Origin: a bacterium
GTDB taxonomy: Bacteria; UBP15; UBA6099; JAJRTR01
Assembly (NCBI GenBank): GCA_024278215.1
Contig: JAJRTR010000073.1
Span: forward strand, 1 to 55,970
Reading direction: 5' to 3'
DNA length: 55,970 bases
The number at the start of each line of letters is the position of its first letter. The stretch's first letter is position 1. The position numbers and the translations under genes were made by a program. Positions 13,691 to 25,865 of the stretch are shown piece by piece. Below the pieces are notes generated by a model. It worked only from the letters and a program-made list of their open reading frames with translations, had not been told where the DNA came from and searched no databases.

Positions 13691-16600
13691 TTAATTCAAA
13701 AAGAAGTTCGGATCGATAAGTTCTTCGAGTCCTTTCATAGCGAGATAATAATATCTTCGATTTTGCACAATTTTCATAAGCAACTCACGCGCTTCCCTTT
13801 TTTCGCCTTTGAGCGCGAGCGTCCTGCCGAGTTCAGCACGCATGTATACGTTTTCAGGTGCTATGAGCACTCCCTTTCTCAGGACGTTTTCAGCATCTGC
13901 ATATTGTTCTATCTCTATGCTGTACCTGCCGAGAGCGAGATAGCAGTCTTCACAGAATTGATTGTTCTCGATTGCGGACTTTTCGTATTTCGCCGCGAGT
14001 TCATACTCGTCGCGGCCCGCACACAGGCCCGCCATGAAGTGATGGATATACCAGCTATACGGCCACCTTTTCACGTAACGCCTGTATTCGTCGTGCAGGG
14101 AGTCGTAGTCTTCTGTCCGGTTAAAGACGGACATTCTACTGATAAGTGCGGCGGCCTCCCTGCTGTTGTCGGGGGGATGCGGCGCGCCCTTTATTTTCTT
14201 TATAAGTTCATTTGCCTTATCGCTGCGGCCTGCTTTGTAATATGCCACTACCTCCTTTATTCGAGGTGTCATGCCGGGTTCCGTTTCATGCGCTTTTCTG
14301 TAATAGGTGATTGCATCGTCGTACAATTTCCTGTCGAGGTCGACATCGGCAAGGCACAAATAGCCTTCCGTGTAATCCGGGTTTATCTCGACAGCTTTCT
14401 TACACCTTTTTTCCCTTTCGGAATTGTCGAAAATATTCAATTTTATAGTCGCGCATTCATAACATTTCGGGTCCATCTCAAGTGCGGCGTCCAGAAATGT
14501 CCGCGACTTCATCCTGTCTCCGAAAAAGGAATAGAACGCCGCGCCGGTTTTTGCTAAAGCCATCGCCTCGGCGTGTTTATTGTCTTCCGCTTTGTAATAC
14601 AGCCACATCAGTTCGGCGGCCTCTTTAATATTGCTTCTGTCCTTTTTGAGCACCAGCCACGCGAGCGGATATGTAAGGTCGCGCCAGTACGGCGCTTTCT
14701 GTTTTTCTACGATTTCACGTGCTTTTTTCTCTGATTTTTCATAATCGAAGATGGATTTCTGATAGAAGTTAAAGATATCCCTGTGGATCGTCGAGTAATC
14801 GTCGGCAAGTTTTTCCGCCTTAAGATATGTTTCTTCAGCATCATCGTCGAGATTCATTTTCTCAAGAATTTTCGCTTTCATCCATAACGAATCAAAGTCG
14901 TCGGCGTTTCTATCTATCAGGTTGTCGAGCAGTTCGACAGCTTTCTCATTGTCGCCGAGTCTGCTTGTTATGTGCGCCAGTTTTCTCATAGAGCGAATGT
15001 TGTCGCCGTCTTTCAGAACAGCTTTTGTGAGTGCCGCCCGTGCATCTGCAAGTCTGAATATCTTTTCGTATATGTCTGCAATATCCTGGAGTTCGTCGGA
15101 TGTGGGATTCATCGTTTCCGCGCGTTTGAGCGCCCTGAAAGTGTTTTTAGTACTACTGTTGTTTTCCGCAATTCTTATCATTGCGGCGACAGTTTTTCTA
15201 TCGGTCGCTTTTCTCCGCTTTTCCTCATCCTTCCATTTTCTATTCTTCTTTTCAGGGGTTGCCGCGGTGCCGTCATCGTTTGTCGCGTACAGGTAAGCGT
15301 TAACTTTAAGTTCCGGCTCGGTCAATCCGGCGATAATATCGGCGAGGCGGTCCTTAAAAGTAACCACCTTTTTCTCTTTTTTTCTTTGCTCCGCCGCGGC
15401 TTCCGTTTTCGCTCTTTGCGCGTCGACGTCAGGATTGGAAATATCTATTTCGGAGATTCCCATAGCGTCGGTAGTTCCGTCCCAGGCATAAGCTTTCAGG
15501 AAATATTTCCCGCTCGGAATGAAAGCCGGGACAGTGAAATCGACCAGGGCCGCGCCCGTGTCGTCGAGTTCAGTCTCCATTCTGTATGCGATCTTGTTGT
15601 TTGCATTTTGATAGTTGGAAGTTACAGCGTCAGATAGTTTGTTTCCGGCGAGGCCGTCGATATCAGTGATGTCGTAAATGATTTCAGTCGGGTGGCTTTC
15701 AAATGTGAAGAGGAGTTTTCCCTTCTTCTTTTCCTTCGTACGAATCGCCACATGCAGCTTTTCACCGGGGCCGGCCTTCGTGGGCGCGTCGATCTCGATC
15801 GTTTCCGCGGCATAAGGTATTTTCGTCGCGGGGTCGCCGATGTAGTTGTAAAGATAAATGTGATCATAGCTGTTCTTGATCTGCTCTTTCCTGCCCATGC
15901 CGAGCAGAGCGTATTGCTTGTCTATGAATTTACGGTCGGTGTCGAACCGCCACACGAGGGACCTGTAGATGTTGAGAATGCCTTCGCCGATGGTTGCGGG
16001 GCGTTTGTCCATCATATAGTACATAATATCTTTAGAGAGCATCGTGTTGGAGTAGGGATGCGACACCTCGGTTGCAGCGAAAACGCCGATGGGGCCGTCC
16101 GCCGCTTTGAACATCTCTTCAGCGATTGAATCCTCCTGGATATCGAATTTGCCGGTCAGGCAGCAGATGCTGAAAAAGAAAGGGGGCTTTCCGCCGGTTT
16201 TGATCCCGCCGACATCCTCATTCTGCATGATGCGTTTGCATTTGCCTTTGTAGCAAACGCTGCTGAGACCGGTAACGGAACCGTGTCCGATGTAGGTCAT
16301 GAAAAGTGAACCGTCGCTGAAGCGGTCGAATACTTTTTGTTTGAAATCGGCGGGCATCTGGAAATAGGGCATACTCGAACCGCCGTAAGTCATATTCAAG
16401 TCGAAGACCGGATCGAAATTGCTGCGAACGAGTTTTTTCGTTGTTTCTTCGAGCGTGGTATCGAAAATGCCGAAATTGCCTGTGCTCGCCAATACGGATG
16501 CGCGTCTCCGCCACGGGCCGGGCGTGGGATTCGTTTCATAGTTCAATATTTTCCTGACAGCCGCTGCGACTTCCTCTTTGTTATCCGCCGGTATCCTTCC

Positions 16601-17107
16601 GACGGCTATGTCGGGCACTTCGTCGCCGTCGACATCCCCGAACGCCGTGTCCGACGCCGCGAGTTTCTCTCCATCTTCTTCGTCCTCATCCTCGAGTTTC
16701 ACAATAAATGTCGGCATCATTAAACCATTGGGATCGTACTGCTCGAAAACATTTATGTCGCCGACCAGCAGGAGATATTTCGGTGTGCCTTTCTTCCAGT
16801 TGTGAGCCGCAAAAGTTACGAATTCCTTAATGGGCCACGGACCGGGCGGGCGGCGGTCGAACTCTGTATATATGTCTTTCGGACTTACAAGCGCGACCGA
16901 CATACCGCCTGCCGCCCTGTGGTCGAGCAGCGGCTGCAACTCATCATGAAACGCCTTCGGCGCGACAACGAGATAGACGGCTCCGTTTTTTCTCGACTTC
17001 AATTTTTTCACGGAATATTTATTGACGGCGCTCGCGCCGGCGGGATGCAGAATCGAGACAGCGAATATCGCCAGAAGGAAAATAATCGATTTTCTTATTG
17101 AATTCAT
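13691..17107 (-). CDS. Secreted gingipain-like (C25) cysteine peptidase with long TPR tail
   Basis: The signal peptide (residues 1-28, IIFLLAIFAVSILHPAGASA) marks export. Residues about 45-450 are a C25 caspase-fold peptidase: VVAPKAFHDELQPLLDHRAAG, LLLVGDINVF, catalytic His275 in MTYIGHGSV and catalytic Cys316 in FFFSICCLTGKF, the same HG...C(L/V)(T/N)G arrangement as gingipain. An Ig-like beta region follows (about 450-560, with GKYFLKAYAWDGTTDAMG). From about 640 to 1130 it is a string of TPR helices (AVELLDNLIDRNADDFDSLW, AEKLADDYSTIHRDIFNFYQ). A Por secretion C-terminal domain is not evident. TPR tails are unusual for an extracellular peptidase. It is convergent with the amidohydrolase at 12743 (42 bp gap) and divergent from the giant propeller gene. 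Confidence 0.85.
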   Translation of the reverse strand: MNSIRKSIIFLLAIFAVSILHPAGASAVNKYSVKKLKSRKNGAVYLVVAPKAFHDELQPLLDHRAAGGMSVALVSPKDIYTEFDRRPPGPWPIKEFVTFAAHNWKKGTPKYLLLVGDINVFEQYDPNGLMMPTFIVKLEDEDEEDGEKLAASDTAFGDVDGDEVPDIAVGRIPADNKEEVAAAVRKILNYETNPTPGPWRRRASVLASTGNFGIFDTTLEETTKKLVRSNFDPVFDLNMTYGGSSMPYFQMPADFKQKVFDRFSDGSLFMTYIGHGSVTGLSSVCYKGKCKRIMQNEDVGGIKTGGKPPFFFSICCLTGKFDIQEDSIAEEMFKAADGPIGVFAATEVSHPYSNTMLSKDIMYYMMDKRPATIGEGILNIYRSLVWRFDTDRKFIDKQYALLGMGRKEQIKNSYDHIYLYNYIGDPATKIPYAAETIEIDAPTKAGPGEKLHVAIRTKEKKKGKLLFTFESHPTEIIYDITDIDGLAGNKLSDAVTSNYQNANNKIAYRMETELDDTGAALVDFTVPAFIPSGKYFLKAYAWDGTTDAMGISEIDISNPDVDAQRAKTEAAAEQRKKEKKVVTFKDRLADIIAGLTEPELKVNAYLYATNDDGTAATPEKKNRKWKDEEKRRKATDRKTVAAMIRIAENNSSTKNTFRALKRAETMNPTSDELQDIADIYEKIFRLADARAALTKAVLKDGDNIRSMRKLAHITSRLGDNEKAVELLDNLIDRNADDFDSLWMKAKILEKMNLDDDAEETYLKAEKLADDYSTIHRDIFNFYQKSIFDYEKSEKKAREIVEKQKAPYWRDLTYPLAWLVLKKDRSNIKEAAELMWLYYKAEDNKHAEAMALAKTGAAFYSFFGDRMKSRTFLDAALEMDPKCYECATIKLNIFDNSEREKRCKKAVEINPDYTEGYLCLADVDLDRKLYDDAITYYRKAHETEPGMTPRIKEVVAYYKAGRSDKANELIKKIKGAPHPPDNSREAAALISRMSVFNRTEDYDSLHDEYRRYVKRWPYSWYIHHFMAGLCAGRDEYELAAKYEKSAIENNQFCEDCYLALGRYSIEIEQYADAENVLRKGVLIAPENVYMRAELGRTLALKGEKREARELLMKIVQNRRYYYLAMKGLEELIDPNFFLN

Positions 17108-17492: not shown

Positions 17493-20400
17493 ATGATTTC
17501 ATATTGTCGTTACCTGTACACAACAATAATCATTTTAACATTAGTTATAGTTTTACCTGCACGTTTATATGCCTTTACGGATTCCGGCCAGTCTATAGGA
17601 AGCGGCAATGTATTGTCGGCGGCAGTCGGAGATATCGACGGCGACGGCGACCCCGATTTAATCACCGGATTGAATACACTTGGCGATAAGCTGTTTCTCA
17701 ATAGCGGCGGTACACTTACTGATTCGGGGCAGGCCCTGGACCCTGGAGATACATCCGGGATTTTCATTTTCGACGTAGATGGAGACGGTGATCTGGACTA
17801 TGTTGCAGGGAATCTCAACGGAAACGGCGGACTGTGGCTGAATGACGGGACAGGTACATTTTCTGATTCCGGATTGTCCGTCGGTAACAGTACTTACAGC
17901 TTCTATGCCGTCGATCTCGACATGGACGGCGATTACGACCTGCTCGAAGGAACAGATAATGGAGTCAGCAATAAAGCATGGCTGAATAACGGCGGTGGTG
18001 TCTTTACAGATTCCGGCCGGTCTTTCGACACTTCTACATACGCAGCCGTTGCAGGAAGTGATTTGGACGGCGACGGCGACACGGATTTTGTGGCTGCGGT
18101 TTTGGGAAGTTTACCTAATAAAGTGTGGAAGAATAACGGAACAGGAATCTTCACGGATTCCGGCCAGACACTGGGTGCCTGTGATTCGTCAAGTGTAGCT
18201 ATTTACGATTTTGACGCCGATGGAGACGCGGACGTGTTTTTTGGAAATGTCGGTGCTTCGAACACTGTCTGGCTGAATGACGGTTCCGGCGTACTAACCG
18301 ATTCGGGACAGGCGACGGGTGCGTCCGATACATACTCGGTAGCAGGCGCCGATATGGATGGCGACGGGGATTACGATGTCATATCAGGCAATGCGAATCC
18401 AATAAGCGGCATGCCGAATACATTTTGGATAAACAACGGAAGCGGTGTTTTCACTGACTCCGGCGAGGAGATAGGCGATAACGATTCATTTGCAATCGCT
18501 CTTTCCGACTTCGACGCGGACGGCGACATTGACATTTTCGACGGCAACCTGAGCGCCTCATCCGCCCTTTTCATCAACGACAACAACCATGCGAACACGA
18601 CACCGACAGCGCCGCCGCTGACGGCCGAGCCGGATATTGTAATTCTCGAAGCGACGGCGGCGATAACACTCGAGTGGGGCGCGGGCAGCGATGCAGAGGC
18701 AGCGGACACCGATCTGCTGACCTATGACCTGCGGGTCGGCACTTCAGCCGGAGCGTGCGATGTTTACTGCGGCACTTTTCCGACCGTGGGCGTGAGCCCG
18801 TATCACAGCGTGCTCCCCGGAAACGCGGGGGCGGCTCTATCTCATATTGTAGCGCTTGCGACCGGTACTTATTACTGGTCTGTGCGCACGGTGGACACAA
18901 CATATAAGGCAAGCGCGTGGAGCGTCGACGATTCGTTTATCGTCAGGCCGATTTACACCGATTCGGGCCAGTCGTTCGACGGCGCTAATACTTTCGCCGT
19001 TCACCCGCTGGACGCCGACGGCGACGGTGATGTCGATTTTATCGAAACGATATATCTCGACGACGATGTGCTGTGGAAAAACGACGGGGCCGGCACATTT
19101 ACAAAGGTAACGCAGGTCTGGAACGATATGAATGAGCTGGACGGCTGCACTGCCGACATCGACGGTGACGGCGACATCGATTTTATTTCCGCCAATAACG
19201 CGGCGCAGTCCAACAGGGTATGGAAAAACGACGGGAGCGGCACTTTTACGGACACCGGCCAGGCGCTGGGCAGCGGCAGGACGTATGACTGTGTGACCGT
19301 GGATGTGGATTCCGACGGCGATTACGATCTCGTTGCGGCAAATGAAAACGGAGACCCCAACAAGCTGTATAAAAACAACGGCACCGGGGTTTTCTCCGAT
19401 ACCTTGCAGTCGATGGGTGCGGAATACACGATGGAAGTTGTCGCCGGTGATTTCGACGACGACGGCGACGAGGATGTCGTCTTTGCGAACCGCTATGCGC
19501 CGAGTCAATTGTGGCTCAACGATGGCACAGGTGCGTTGACGGACTCGGGGCAGGCGATCGGCTCCGATGAGGCGCGATCGGTCTTCGCGGCGGATACCGA
19601 CGCGGACGGCGACGCGGACATTCTGATAGGATACGACAACGCGACGGACAGGATATTCATAAATGACGGTTCGGCTACATTCTCCGATTCGGGGCAGTCG
19701 CTCGTGTCACCGAAAACGAGGTCCGTGCATGTCATCGACGTGGATATAGACGGCGACCTGGATATTATAGCGGGCAACTATAATGCAGGCGACAAAGTCT
19801 GGTACAACGACGGTTCGGGCAATTTCAACGATTCGTTCATGAGCCTCGGAACCGGCGAAACGCAGAGTATATTCGCAGTTGATGTGGATGGCGACGGCGA
19901 CACGGACATAATCGAAGGCAACAGCAGCGGCGAGGGGTGCGCGGTATGGGAGAATATTCTCGATCCGTCGAACACGGCACCGTCGGCTCCTTCGATTACG
20001 ACAAAAGCTGATACGATAATTCCCGGAACGGCGACTGTTACATTTGAATGGTCGGACGGAAGCGACCCGGAAACAGCCGACGCCGATCTGCTGACTTATG
20101 ATATTCGTATCGGCACGAGCAGCGGCGGGTGCGAGGCTTTCTGCGGATCGCTGCCGTGGTCGGGCGCGGTGCCGTGGAGAAACACCGGGCCGGGTGCGAT
20201 GGGTGCCACGGGCTCGTTTTCAATCATTATGTCGACGGGAACATATTACTGGTCGATGCGCACGGTGGACCCGGCGAGCCTTGCTGGTGCGTGGGGAACG
20301 GAGGATTCTTTCGTTCTGATACAGGATGACGCAGCCGCTCCGACCGTTATTGACAACCAGGACGGCGATGACACATGGCGGAATGCGGCGGGCACAACTT

Positions 20401-23400
20401 ATGATGTCGATTTCGCCGATACAGGCGATTCGCTGCTCGACAATGTCCAATATACTATATGGTCCGCCGCTTCGATGGCGGGTACGGAACTCGTTTCGTG
20501 GACTGATATCGCCGATAACATTGATTCCATTTCATACACGACCGACTGGGAGATAGACTTCGAATCCGCCACCTCCGGAGTGAATTACGTTTCAGTGCGC
20601 GCTTTCGATAATTTCGGGAATGTTTCAGATGTCGCGACGGACGTTTTTTATGTGAAAAAGGAGACATCGCCGCCCACAGTAACGGACAACCAGGGCGGCG
20701 ACGCCATCTGGCGGAACGCGGCGGGCACAACTTATGATGTCGATTTCGCCGACACGGGCGGTTCGCAACTTGCCGATGTCCAATATACTATATACGATGG
20801 GGCGGGGCAGGGCGGCTCTATGATACTTGGCTGGTCCGGCATCGCGACCGGCGTCGACGCCGATTCTTATACGACAGACTGGCAGATAGATTTCAACGCG
20901 GCCGCCACGGGTACTAATTACGTATCCGTCCGCGCGACCGACAATGCAGGTAATATTTCCGCCGTAGCCACGGACGTGTTTTATGTAAAAAAAGATACGG
21001 CGCTCCCGACAATAGATGATCAAGTGAGCGGCGACGACAACTGGTATGCCGCCGATCCGGGTGCGATTTATAATGTCGATTTCAATGACTCGGGCGGCTC
21101 GATGTTATCCGCCGCTTCTTATACCGTATATACGGGTACAGGCATGTCCGGTTCGCAAGTCATCTCCTGGGCAACTATCGCAGCCGGCATCGGCTCCGAC
21201 TCATATACAGATAACTGGGGTATAGATTTTGCTTCGTTGCCGTTCGGCATCTCCTATATTTCCGTCAGGGCAGCAGATAACGCTCAGAACAGTTCGGGCG
21301 TCGTTCAGGATGTGTTTTACGTGCGGAAGACGCAGATCGCAATGTCGCTCTCATCATATCCCTCCGGAAGCAACAACACGACAGATATAAAAGCGGGCGA
21401 CCTGGACGGCGACGGTGATCTCGATATCATCGAAGGAAACACCGCCCAGACTAATATGGTATGGCTCGGAGACGGAACCGGTGGCTTCACACAGTTGGTT
21501 TCAGTCATGGGGTCTTACTACACGCAATCTGTTTTTATCGCCGACCTCGACAACGACGGCGACCTCGATGTCGTCTGTGGAAACGCATCAGCGGGCGATG
21601 TGAAAAACCGGGTATGGTTCAATGACGGCGTCGCGAATTTTACCGATGCGGGCCTGAACGACAGCCTGGGTTCGAGCGATACTATGTCCGTATTCGCGGC
21701 GGACCTGGACCGTGACGGCGATATGGATTTCATCGCGGGCAATTATGCGCAGGCCGATAAAGTATGGATAAATGACGGTGCAGGCGCGTTCGCTGATTCC
21801 GGGCAATCACTCGGTTCGTATAATACAAATTCAATATTCGGTATTGATGTCGACGGCGACGGCGATATGGATTTTATCGAGGGCAATAATGGAGCGGACA
21901 GAATCCTGCTCAACGACGGTGCCGCCTCGTTTACAGACTCCGGCCAGAGCCTGGGACTTGCTGATACGAAACATATATATTCCACAGACATCGATGCCGA
22001 CGGTGATGCCGACATAATCGCGGCCAATTACGGTGACGATAAAATATGGTTGAATGACGGCGGCGGTATGTTCACGGATTCCGGGCAGTCGCTTTCGTCG
22101 GGTCTGACGGATTCATTCGCGGCGGGCGACCTGGACGGCGACGGCGATTCTGATTTCATCACCGGTCGCGACGGTACGGATTACATCTGGATAAACGACG
22201 GTTCCGGTACGTTCTCCGCGAATGCGCAGACATTTCTATCAATACCTTCTGACGCTGTCGAAGCTCTGGATATGGACGGTGATGGAGACCTGGATATATA
22301 CGTCGGGCGTTATCAATCGAACAATCGTGTTTATATTAACAATAACAACCATGCCAACGCTGCGCCGATCGCGCCTGCGCTTGTTGGCGAACCGACGCAG
22401 GAATTGTCTTCCGACGACGCTGTCGATGTGACACTCGAATGGACCGGCGGAAGCGATGCCGAGACAGGCGACACCGACCTTCTGACTTATGACGTGCGTG
22501 TCGGTACAACAGGCGGCGGCTGCGAAGTTTTCTGCGGCTGGTTTCCGAAAACGGCGGCATGGCTCGGGCATCGGCCCGGCAACGCGGGCGCGACACACGG
22601 TATTTCGTTGTCGCTTCCGCTCGGCAGCTATTACTGGTCGGTGCGCACGGTGGACACAACATTTAAGGCGAGTTCGTGGGCTGCTGAAGATACGTTCACT
22701 CTTTTTCGCCCAGTATTTGTCGATTCCGGCCAGGAACTCGGGAGCGGAGATACGAACGAATTGTGTGTCGCGGATTTCACAGGCAACGGCCACATGGATT
22801 TTGTCGCGGTCGACGATTCCTCAAATGACCTGTTGTGGGTTAATTTCGAGAATGGAACTTTCAGCGACTCCGGCCAGGGCATGAACGCTGCTTATTCCGT
22901 CGACGTATCATGCGCCGACATCGACGGCGATTCCGATATAGACTACATAGTTGCGTTATCGGGAAATTCAAATATTGTTTGGAAGAACAACGGCACAGGA
23001 ACATTTTCTCAGTCCACATCTTTTGATTCGTCCGACACTGAAGGTGTTGTCTTTGCGGATGTCGATAATGACGGCGATGTCGATGTGATAGATGGGAACA
23101 GCGGTACGGGAAACACTGTGTTCCTGAATGACGGAAGCGGTTCTTTTTCGGATTCCGGACAGTCGCTCGGTGTCAGTAACACTACAGATGTTTTTATAGC
23201 CGATCTGGACTCCGATGGCGACAAAGACATTTATGAATCGAATGATGGAGCGGGCAACGTCGTATGGATGAACGATGGAACAGGCGTTTTCTCCGACTCG
23301 GGCCAGTCTCTAGGGACAGATACGACGACGAAGTCTTTTGGAGCGGATGTCGACGGCGATGGTGATATCGACATGATTGAAGGCAATACGCCGGGAGCGC

Positions 23401-25865
23401 CCAACAGAGTAAGGATCAACGACGGTGCGGGTGTTTTCTCCGGCACAGGCGGAGAATACGGCGGCAGCGACACAACAGCTGTTTATCCCGGCGATATCGA
23501 TGTGGACGGCGACTATGATTTCATCGCGGGCAACACGGCGCAGGGAAACGTCGTGTGGTTCAACAGCGCGGGCGTGTTTTCGGATGCCGGTAATTCGCTC
23601 GGCAGCAGCCTGACAAATACTGTTGTACTTGTCGACGTGGACGGCGACGGGGGCCTTGACTATATCGAAGGCAACGGATCCGGCCCCGATAGAATATGGT
23701 TCAATAACCTCGACACGCCGAACACGAATCCTTCGCCGCCCGCTCCGACTGCTCAGCCGGATTACGAAACGGCTTCCATGACGGTTTCCGTAACGCTCGA
23801 GTGGCCGGACGGAACCGACGCCGAAACTGCGGCCGCCGGACTATTGACTTATGAGGTGCGAGTCGGCACGAGCAGCGGAGCCTGCGACATATTATGCGCC
23901 GCGAAAGAGCGTAACCTGACAGCCGGACCCGGCAGCGGGCCGGGAGTGTTCGGACCTATGAACACGCTCGACCTCGATCTCGCATCCGGCACTTATTACT
24001 GGTCGCTGCGTACGGTCGATCCTACATATTACAGGAGCGCGTGGAGCGCCGAGGATTCGTTCTCTATTACTGTCGACAGCACTGCTCCTTCGACGATAAC
24101 GACCGTCAACGACGGCCTCGGCGACGACATCGACTTTTCTACCGATACTGCCTCCTTTTCCGCAAACTGGAGTGAAGCCGCAGACGGTGAGACTTCCATC
24201 GCGCGCTACTGGTACAGCATCGGCACAAGCGCGGGCGCGTCCGATACCGTAGGCTGGACGGATAACGGAACAGCAACATCGGTAACTGTTACGGGACTAA
24301 GTCTCACAGGTGGCCTGACATATTATATATCCGTGAAGGCCGAGAACGGCGCGGGGCTCATAGGCAATCCCGCCGTCTCCGACGGGCTTCTTGTGGACGG
24401 GACATTACCGTCGGCGGTTGCCTTCGTTTACGACGGCGCGGTTGACGGTGCCGACATTGATTTCTCTTCATCCTCATCCCGGCTTTCCGCAAACTGGGCG
24501 ACTTCATCCGATGATGAAACAAGCATCGCCGGTTACTGGTACAGCATCGGCACAAACGCGGGCGCCTCCGATACTGTGCCATGGACCGACAACGCCGCTT
24601 CCACTTCTGTCACCCTTTCTTCTCTTTCTCTCGCAAATGGACAAACTTATTTTTTCTCTGTGAAAGCCGAAAACGGCGCGGGCGCTTTCGGCAGCGTTGA
24701 AACTTCCGACGGGGCGACTGTAGACTGGACTGCGCCCGATGCTGTTCTGGTCGTTTACGACGGCACGGGTGCCGACATCGATTATTCAACCGACACAACA
24801 CAACTATCCGCAAACTGGAGCGCCGCGTCCGATCCCGAATCGGGCATCCTTTCCTACACATACTCGATAGGAACGACGGTGGGCGCGTGCGACGTTGTTT
24901 CCTGGACGGACAACGCTTCAGGCACATCCGTGACCCACACCGGGTTGTCTCTCGCGGACGGACAGGTTTACTTCTTCAGTGTCAGGGCGTTGAACTATGC
25001 CGGACTTTATTCCTCGAAGGTGTTTTCAGACGGTGTGACCATAAATATTTCAGGTCCGGGCGAAGTTGCAGACCTTATGGCCGATCCGGCAATATCCGAG
25101 ATACTTCTGAGTTGGACGAATCCCGCGGACACAGACTTTGCGGGCACAATAATAATGAGAAGTCAGGTTTCTTACCCTTCGAACGCTTCGGAAGGCACTC
25201 GAATATGCGACGAAGCAACAAACGAATTCTGCACCGATGAGACGAGTCTCGCACAGGGACTCACATATTATTATTCAGCTTTTGCTTATGATATTGCAGG
25301 CAATTATTCGACAGCCGCAGGCGAGGGTGCGCGTGCCACGGCTTCTCTTATTACACCCGGCCTGACAATATATTCCGGCTGGAACGCCGCAGGCATTTCG
25401 CTCGATCAGGTTTATATCGACCTCGCCGCGGTTTTCCCATCCGGCGATTATACGATTATCCGCTGCGACGGCCCGGTGACGAATTACGATGGATACATAA
25501 ATGCCACGGGCACCATACAACTCGATTACGCGGGCGGCTACTGGATATTCTCAGGTGAAGATATAGGTGTTGTCGATTACACAGGCGGAAACGCGCAGAC
25601 GGAAAACTACTACCAGATTTCACTTGCCGCCGGTTGGAATATGTTCTCGCTTCCTTATAACAGTGAGATCGAATGGAACGACACGAACGCCGCCCTCGAA
25701 TGCGGCGGCACAGGCACGTCGCTTCCCACTGTTTACTACTACGACAACAGTACAGGAGAATACACGGAAATCGAAGGTGGAGCCGGGAAGTCACTCATGC
25801 CGTGGAGAGGCTACTGGGTCGAAGTGAATGAGTCATGTACATTGACAATTAATAAACCGCAATAG
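17493..25865 (+). CDS. Giant secreted FG-GAP/VCBS protein: four seven-bladed propellers with Fn3-like linkers
   Basis: This is a 2790-residue protein with a signal peptide (residues 1-27, ending ARLYA). Four blocks of calcium-binding repeats (consensus DxDGDGDxD, then WLNDGxGxFxDSGQ) occupy about 28-365, 488-825, 1280-1615 and 1737-2070. Each has exactly seven repeats of ~48 residues, as expected of a seven-bladed propeller. Each block is followed by a ~115-residue Fn3-like module (LTYDLRVGTSAGACD ... GTYYWSVRTVDT). Three Ig-like modules lie at about 946-1280 (NAAGTTYDVDFADTG), and four Fn3 modules at about 2191-2620. The C-terminal ~170 residues (YSGWNAAGISL, LAAGWNMFSLPY) form a beta-rich end domain. 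Such proteins are usually adhesins or surface-matrix proteins. No catalytic domain, LPXTG or PEP-CTERM sorting signal was seen. The ribosome site before 17493 is weak. Confidence 0.9.
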   Translation: MISYCRYLYTTIIILTLVIVLPARLYAFTDSGQSIGSGNVLSAAVGDIDGDGDPDLITGLNTLGDKLFLNSGGTLTDSGQALDPGDTSGIFIFDVDGDGDLDYVAGNLNGNGGLWLNDGTGTFSDSGLSVGNSTYSFYAVDLDMDGDYDLLEGTDNGVSNKAWLNNGGGVFTDSGRSFDTSTYAAVAGSDLDGDGDTDFVAAVLGSLPNKVWKNNGTGIFTDSGQTLGACDSSSVAIYDFDADGDADVFFGNVGASNTVWLNDGSGVLTDSGQATGASDTYSVAGADMDGDGDYDVISGNANPISGMPNTFWINNGSGVFTDSGEEIGDNDSFAIALSDFDADGDIDIFDGNLSASSALFINDNNHANTTPTAPPLTAEPDIVILEATAAITLEWGAGSDAEAADTDLLTYDLRVGTSAGACDVYCGTFPTVGVSPYHSVLPGNAGAALSHIVALATGTYYWSVRTVDTTYKASAWSVDDSFIVRPIYTDSGQSFDGANTFAVHPLDADGDGDVDFIETIYLDDDVLWKNDGAGTFTKVTQVWNDMNELDGCTADIDGDGDIDFISANNAAQSNRVWKNDGSGTFTDTGQALGSGRTYDCVTVDVDSDGDYDLVAANENGDPNKLYKNNGTGVFSDTLQSMGAEYTMEVVAGDFDDDGDEDVVFANRYAPSQLWLNDGTGALTDSGQAIGSDEARSVFAADTDADGDADILIGYDNATDRIFINDGSATFSDSGQSLVSPKTRSVHVIDVDIDGDLDIIAGNYNAGDKVWYNDGSGNFNDSFMSLGTGETQSIFAVDVDGDGDTDIIEGNSSGEGCAVWENILDPSNTAPSAPSITTKADTIIPGTATVTFEWSDGSDPETADADLLTYDIRIGTSSGGCEAFCGSLPWSGAVPWRNTGPGAMGATGSFSIIMSTGTYYWSMRTVDPASLAGAWGTEDSFVLIQDDAAAPTVIDNQDGDDTWRNAAGTTYDVDFADTGDSLLDNVQYTIWSAASMAGTELVSWTDIADNIDSISYTTDWEIDFESATSGVNYVSVRAFDNFGNVSDVATDVFYVKKETSPPTVTDNQGGDAIWRNAAGTTYDVDFADTGGSQLADVQYTIYDGAGQGGSMILGWSGIATGVDADSYTTDWQIDFNAAATGTNYVSVRATDNAGNISAVATDVFYVKKDTALPTIDDQVSGDDNWYAADPGAIYNVDFNDSGGSMLSAASYTVYTGTGMSGSQVISWATIAAGIGSDSYTDNWGIDFASLPFGISYISVRAADNAQNSSGVVQDVFYVRKTQIAMSLSSYPSGSNNTTDIKAGDLDGDGDLDIIEGNTAQTNMVWLGDGTGGFTQLVSVMGSYYTQSVFIADLDNDGDLDVVCGNASAGDVKNRVWFNDGVANFTDAGLNDSLGSSDTMSVFAADLDRDGDMDFIAGNYAQADKVWINDGAGAFADSGQSLGSYNTNSIFGIDVDGDGDMDFIEGNNGADRILLNDGAASFTDSGQSLGLADTKHIYSTDIDADGDADIIAANYGDDKIWLNDGGGMFTDSGQSLSSGLTDSFAAGDLDGDGDSDFITGRDGTDYIWINDGSGTFSANAQTFLSIPSDAVEALDMDGDGDLDIYVGRYQSNNRVYINNNNHANAAPIAPALVGEPTQELSSDDAVDVTLEWTGGSDAETGDTDLLTYDVRVGTTGGGCEVFCGWFPKTAAWLGHRPGNAGATHGISLSLPLGSYYWSVRTVDTTFKASSWAAEDTFTLFRPVFVDSGQELGSGDTNELCVADFTGNGHMDFVAVDDSSNDLLWVNFENGTFSDSGQGMNAAYSVDVSCADIDGDSDIDYIVALSGNSNIVWKNNGTGTFSQSTSFDSSDTEGVVFADVDNDGDVDVIDGNSGTGNTVFLNDGSGSFSDSGQSLGVSNTTDVFIADLDSDGDKDIYESNDGAGNVVWMNDGTGVFSDSGQSLGTDTTTKSFGADVDGDGDIDMIEGNTPGAPNRVRINDGAGVFSGTGGEYGGSDTTAVYPGDIDVDGDYDFIAGNTAQGNVVWFNSAGVFSDAGNSLGSSLTNTVVLVDVDGDGGLDYIEGNGSGPDRIWFNNLDTPNTNPSPPAPTAQPDYETASMTVSVTLEWPDGTDAETAAAGLLTYEVRVGTSSGACDILCAAKERNLTAGPGSGPGVFGPMNTLDLDLASGTYYWSLRTVDPTYYRSAWSAEDSFSITVDSTAPSTITTVNDGLGDDIDFSTDTASFSANWSEAADGETSIARYWYSIGTSAGASDTVGWTDNGTATSVTVTGLSLTGGLTYYISVKAENGAGLIGNPAVSDGLLVDGTLPSAVAFVYDGAVDGADIDFSSSSSRLSANWATSSDDETSIAGYWYSIGTNAGASDTVPWTDNAASTSVTLSSLSLANGQTYFFSVKAENGAGAFGSVETSDGATVDWTAPDAVLVVYDGTGADIDYSTDTTQLSANWSAASDPESGILSYTYSIGTTVGACDVVSWTDNASGTSVTHTGLSLADGQVYFFSVRALNYAGLYSSKVFSDGVTINISGPGEVADLMADPAISEILLSWTNPADTDFAGTIIMRSQVSYPSNASEGTRICDEATNEFCTDETSLAQGLTYYYSAFAYDIAGNYSTAAGEGARATASLITPGLTIYSGWNAAGISLDQVYIDLAAVFPSGDYTIIRCDGPVTNYDGYINATGTIQLDYAGGYWIFSGEDIGVVDYTGGNAQTENYYQISLAAGWNMFSLPYNSEIEWNDTNAALECGGTGTSLPTVYYYDNSTGEYTEIEGGAGKSLMPWRGYWVEVNESCTLTINKPQ

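Follow-up and report, generated by a model that had tools for sequence, protein, structure and literature searches.

VCBS propellers and their relatives

The closest described relatives of the protein considered here are the propellers of the VCBS/FG-GAP_3 (PF13517) superfamily, with which it has both the blade motif and the calcium loop in common. In the parts of PMC8023676 drawn on here, prokaryotic VCBS proteins are described that carry signal sequences, may possess several propellers and contain Ig-like domains, while fungal lectins of the PVL type appear as VCBS-family propellers with DxDxDG loops; the sugar pocket of PVL and tachylectin-2 is reported there to be built from a GW motif in the D-A' loop. 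A second account, also represented here by part of its text (PMC9218822), describes blade-wise amplification and a variable number of blades in VCBS propellers, and presents WRAP (Npun_R6612), whose 14 near-identical blades make two seven-bladed rings. WRAP resembles the protein described below in having more than one seven-bladed ring per chain, but it is of WD40 lineage and the product of very recent blade amplification, whereas the gene described below consists of diverged whole units with spacers between them (comparison with the same part of PMC9218822). A search of one open-licence library for FG-GAP propeller proteins of giant size or tandem build gave only the paper on blade amplification, which is not proof that others are absent.

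Two further proteins bear on the comparison. CRTAC1 has a single propeller, and integrin alpha heads, which work as heterodimers, have calcium loops in some blades only.

The gene analysed here lies on a stretch of 55,970 nucleotides (the window), from a bacterium whose genome is a 4.55 Mb draft in 207 contigs. Since signal sequences, multiple propellers and Ig-like domains are all described for VCBS proteins in the cited parts of PMC8023676, the kind of protein is a known one, and the window protein is an added member of the VCBS multi-propeller class. It differs from the superfamily at large in its fixed Fn3-like spacer and strict number of seven blades, no such fixed unit being described in those parts of PMC8023676.

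Organisation of the gene

The open reading frame noted earlier lies at 17493..25865 on the forward strand, as translation and Pfam matches confirm; it encodes 2790 residues of a multi-propeller protein, apparently secreted, with a signal peptide at aa 1-27 (17493..17573) recognised by eye and from hydropathy. All that follows is read on the same strand. Propeller 1 (17574..18590; seven loops, aa 47-339) is followed by Fn3-like module 1 (18591..18953), and propeller 2 (18954..19961; seven loops, aa 507-797) by Fn3-like module 2 (19962..20330). Three Ig-like repeats of about 111 residues each, found by repeat comparison, occupy 20331..21338, between unit 2 and block 3 as had been noted earlier, and the alternation then resumes with propeller 3 (21339..22349; seven loops, aa 1303-1593), Fn3-like module 3 (22350..22712), propeller 4 (22713..23714; seven blades, loops at aa 1761-2048) and Fn3-like module 4 (23715..24077). 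Propellers were delimited by loop motifs and a blade HMM, with the help of a structural model for propeller 3 and of strand order in a low-confidence model for propeller 4, and the spacers by module alignment. The protein ends in a tail of about four more Fn3-type modules (24078..25337; at least three from repeats, HMM and Pfam, the fourth by eye) and a C-terminal domain, here called GWN, that runs to the stop codon (25365..25862; profile matches, no Pfam family). The tail and this domain of about 165 residues, both lying beyond unit 4, were absent from the earlier note. A gene for a C25-family peptidase with TPR repeats (13691-17107, minus strand) lies next to the giant gene and runs divergently from it.

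The modules that follow the propellers are about 120 residues long, and each of the four has the CxxxC pair previously reported (Cys 422/426, 880/884, 1677/1681 and 2131/2135); the linkers after the blocks, also remarked on before, read NHAN after blocks 1 and 3, PSNTAP after block 2 and TPNTNP after block 4. Module 1, the single inter-propeller module scanned alone, did not match fn3 (PF00041), and since its best Pfam match, to Ig_Rha78A_N, had an E value of 0.082, with no family below 0.08, 'Fn3-like' serves here as a descriptive label. Pfam fn3 does match modules of the tail. The Ig-like repeats gave a weak match of the OmpL47 type in NCBIfam, below the cut-off, and repeats 1 and 2, which are 84% identical over 121 nt and share 35 nt exactly, resemble each other more than any other long repeat pair observed in the gene.

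Calcium loops and predicted fold

Loop motifs and a blade HMM reproduced the earlier count of 28 calcium-loop blades, grouped by sevens into four blocks that are each followed by an Fn3-like module. FG-GAP_3 matches the protein with an E value of 7.6e-117 and 382.4 bits (cut-off 26.9) over 25 stretches. The strict motif DxDGDGDxD occurs 12 times and DxDxDGDxD 25 times, whereas 1000 shuffles of the same protein gave the latter 0.012 times on average and at most once. Three variant loops, DFTGNGHMD (aa 1761), DIDGDSDID (aa 1809) and DVDGDGGLD (aa 2048), complete the 28. Loops are spaced 47-53 residues apart inside blocks. The blade HMM found seven blades in each of the intervals 28-365, 488-822, 1285-1619 and 1741-2074, both it and the Fn3 HMM having been built from rows of the window protein and its paralogues, which they therefore favour. 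The three acidic loop positions (DxDxDG) are kept in 27 of the 28 loops, the exception being the first loop of block 4 (22773..22799, forward strand), correctly singled out before as degenerate. Because its D-x-T-x-N-G retains one acidic position of the three, loss of the calcium site at this loop is plausible from the residues themselves.

A structure check was run on one block. Given block 3 plus its spacer, with nine aligned rows, AlphaFold2 returned a model with pLDDT 81 and pTM 0.80, in which the DSSP strand order is an N-terminal outer strand D followed by seven sets of A-B-C with six D strands, and together with the fold matches this predicts a seven-bladed propeller, as had been proposed. 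The N-terminal strand is predicted to be the outer strand of blade 7, a 'Velcro' closure, and we infer a closed ring in block 3 from this strand order and from the full-length alignment of the model to solved propellers. CRTAC1 (9etn) was the best match in both fold (Z 33.3, rmsd 3.0 over 378 residues) and sequence, with an alignment that extends beyond the propeller, but it is an animal protein with 15% identity. The EPTP propeller of LGI1 followed (Z 32.0, rmsd 2.5 over 312 residues), and then integrin aIIb (Z about 29, rmsd 2.8 over about 315 residues), a seven-bladed FG-GAP propeller like block 3 but with identity of about 17%; PVL-type lectins were also among the matches. A model of two units was poor (pLDDT 55, pTM 0.43) and gave no usable inter-unit geometry, and in that poor model block 4 again had seven blades by strand order.

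Related genes

Propeller-Fn3 units of the window type occur in three other genes of the host genome, C151, C201 and C20. C151 (L016:4532-16057) encodes 3842 residues with eight units, and its spacers carry a CxxC, nearer their start than the CxxxC in those of the window gene and C201. C201 has six units, three on each side of an in-frame TAG (L017, about 8024-8022, minus strand) that leaves both halves otherwise open and may reflect a nonsense mutation, readthrough or a sequence error. C20 has one complete unit and then six blades up to the end of its contig (L018), while C202, at the start of L050, opens with a single blade followed by a spacer; the two are probably parts of a single gene interrupted where the contig ends. 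Besides its propeller units, C20 (L018:1525-7002) has an N-terminal GWN domain, a weak dockerin-like match and Ig, TIG and carboxypeptidase-regulatory-like domains. Every one of the 19 units that lie whole on one contig has seven blades (four in the window, eight in C151, six in C201 and one in C20).

Beyond this genome the picture is more varied. In the related genome G002 one gene (C83) has two units of seven by the blade HMM and another (C386) has four, two of which fall short of seven by HMM and have seven when counted by eye; the spacers of C386 are without the CxxxC pair, and its contig is identical to a contig of the MAG DeMMO6_30. Of the 60 genomes searched, 12 gave the Fn3-like module, and single propeller-spacer units are present in other lineages. 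Many units outside the core family have fewer than seven blades by HMM. Counts made by eye, which are weaker than the count of 19 out of 19, gave seven for L033 unit 2, L036, L042, L048 and L021, about seven with degenerate loops for L037 and six visible blades for L049; L033 units 1 and 3 were also counted by eye, and L039 was left uncounted. On the G053 stretch (L046) no ORF had five or more blades by the blade HMM. A comparison with plasmids yielded eight records, the best of which covered 8% of the query, at identity below 60%.

A conserved linkage with the C25 peptidase was considered and rejected, since relatives with 95-97% coverage in G001 and G006 lie on fetched stretches that have no propeller, GWN or Fn3-like ORF. 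The other C25 match of the host genome is on the contig of the eight-unit gene, and the sole C25 match of G002 lies directly 3' of a propeller-Fn3 ORF of 4512 residues; C25 and GWN overlap partly across the genomes searched, as read off the search results.

Multiplication of the units

It had been proposed that propeller and Fn3-like module multiplied together. The part of this proposal that concerns the family stood, with strict alternation in four genes and with register and co-variation in C201, but within the window gene the signal is not significant. In C201 a cyclic shift of 0 gave the best blade register in 14 of 15 unit pairs (0/2000 permutations), and its units 2 and 3 are sisters in the unit tree (support 100/99); within the window gene the same shift was best in two of six pairs (419/5000 permutations). 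Register between the window gene and C201 was reached in 0/2000 permutations (1/2000 on repeat; 7/2000 on inner blades alone) and that between the window gene and C151 likewise in 0/2000 (10/2000 on inner blades alone), while between C201 and C151 it fades on inner blades (131/2000). The similarity of propellers correlates with that of their Fn3-like modules in C201 (r 0.66, 260/10000) and across the three genes taken together (r 0.87, 0/10000), the latter probably driven by the split of C151; the correlation is weak in the window gene and C201 together (924/10000) and not significant within the window gene (3173/10000) or C151 (2973/10000). Whole-unit copying is thus well supported by these comparisons across the family, and for the window gene it is the simplest reading, not proved within the gene. 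The unit of multiplication would then be an entire seven-bladed propeller plus its Fn3-like module and not the blade.

An important consideration is how these data bear on two other explanations of the same layout. Each block might have been amplified independently from a single blade, with seven being merely a stable ring size; single-blade amplification is ongoing and well documented in the superfamily (in the part of PMC9218822 cited above), and the lack of significant register within the window gene is what such a history would allow. Blades within a block are, however, barely more similar to one another than blades of different blocks (83.2 versus 81.8), which argues against each block having grown from one blade, and with register kept in C201 and between C201 and the window gene, and the identical type of Fn3-like module after every block, we regard this explanation as improbable. 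A still smaller probability attaches to the idea that the copy number reflects repeats collapsed or expanded in assembly. The draft and fragmented state of the genome, the in-frame TAG of C201 and the apparent splitting of one gene between C20 and C202 all speak in its favour, but a tandem array was looked for in the window gene and not found, the longest exact repeat there is 35 nt and the units are just 50-55% identical in DNA. For the window gene such an artefact is, on this sequence evidence, very unlikely.

The preferred reading, whole-unit copying, does not come with a chronology. The suggestion that the gene is a clean case for dating duplications is unsupported, because fourfold sites are near saturation, the forks of the tree are mostly open and the window units were not recovered as a clade. 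Pairs of window units are 39-45% identical in amino acids, and at fourfold sites they agree in 37-42% of cases, where codon usage would lead one to expect 30%; the Fn3-like modules are 39-52% identical to one another and 34-57% identical to those of C201, and the window units as a whole are as near to C201 units as to one another. In the unit tree window and C201 units intermingle and the four window units do not form one clade, and forcing them into one costs 6.9 log units (p-AU 0.094) and is not rejected; the C151 units and those of G002 C83 do form one clade (100/100). Ordering the four window units was abandoned, the forks being mostly open in both trees, as was dating by synonymous sites. 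The copies in the window gene appear too old to date from DNA, and their multiplication would accordingly be old in the scheme favoured here.

Export, possible attachment and proposed function

The one strongly hydrophobic stretch of the protein is N-terminal (windows above 1.6 all start at aa 1-13), and Omp85 homologues found in the genome suggest that the host has an outer membrane. Neither an LPxTG motif nor a second hydrophobic stretch was found in the window protein, so that any anchoring is attributed solely to the putative role of GWN. This domain has 25 matches in the genome, spread over 18 ORFs, and in all 18 it is at or near a terminus, ending 0-10 residues before the stop in 15 and lying near the N-terminus, past an apparent signal peptide, in three, C20 included; in these counts L059, which repeats L051, was counted once, and L061, without a GWN hit in the scan, was found by genome search and its C-terminal position taken from coordinates and sequence. 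One of the proteins it closes has alpha/beta-hydrolase domains. GWN is present in all seven genomes of the order and in 19 of the 60 genomes searched, belongs to no Pfam family and has no convincing sequence match in the PDB (best E 0.045). Its terminal position in unrelated, apparently exported proteins suggests a candidate sorting or attachment module that would direct the protein to the cell surface or hold it there. Type IX secretion was considered and, on a search for SprA, rejected: the two matches in the host's own genome are short and score 35 and 32 bits where 200 is required, and none of the seven genomes of the order has SprA above the cut-off. Short SprA-like matches are similar in all genomes of the order; two ORFs that carry such matches below the cut-off (L066:4053-7796 and L067:5039-8410) encode about 1100-1250 residues with no clear Pfam family.

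Of the earlier suggestion of a giant surface fibre, the size and the export signal are borne out, with the surface location and the fibre form staying putative. In the reading that we favour, the protein would be stabilised by calcium and would bind multivalently, at the cell surface or outside it. Calcium in the A-B loops would stiffen each ring, and the rings would serve as repeated binding faces, with Fn3 and Ig spacers between them, giving avidity for a putative ligand. A more specific alternative makes the protein a multivalent lectin that binds glycans at its blade interfaces in the manner of PVL and so captures polysaccharide. VCBS propellers are typically tied to carbohydrate recognition (PMC9218822, in the part cited), the fold search also matched fungal lectins (PVL, PAL and that of Agrocybe), and genes for a 4-alpha-glucanotransferase and an alpha-amylase/CBM48-family protein lie nearby; but the GW of the PVL and tachylectin sugar pocket occurs nowhere in the 1351 residues of the window's four propellers, and the neighbouring sugar enzymes resemble those of ordinary glycogen metabolism, so that we consider a lectin of this kind doubtful. 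It is rather probable, in our judgement, that the window gene encodes an exported chain of beads, a multivalent series of calcium-stiffened seven-bladed rings held by GWN and produced by an old multiplication of whole units.

Implications for the family

The main point of interest is the fixed number of seven set beside the blade-wise amplification published for VCBS propellers (in the cited part of PMC9218822): seven blades have been held through divergence close to saturation while the number of propellers varies between genes. A wider proposal, which we put forward tentatively and hold to be possible at less than even confidence, is that the order uses GWN, as a previously undescribed sorting or attachment domain, to display exported giant proteins in which seven-bladed propeller and spacer are gained or lost as indivisible units (2, 4, 6, 8). 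If this is true, reach and avidity would evolve stepwise with the size of the ring fixed. GWN itself offers a testable handle on the export and retention of giant proteins in a poorly known lineage.
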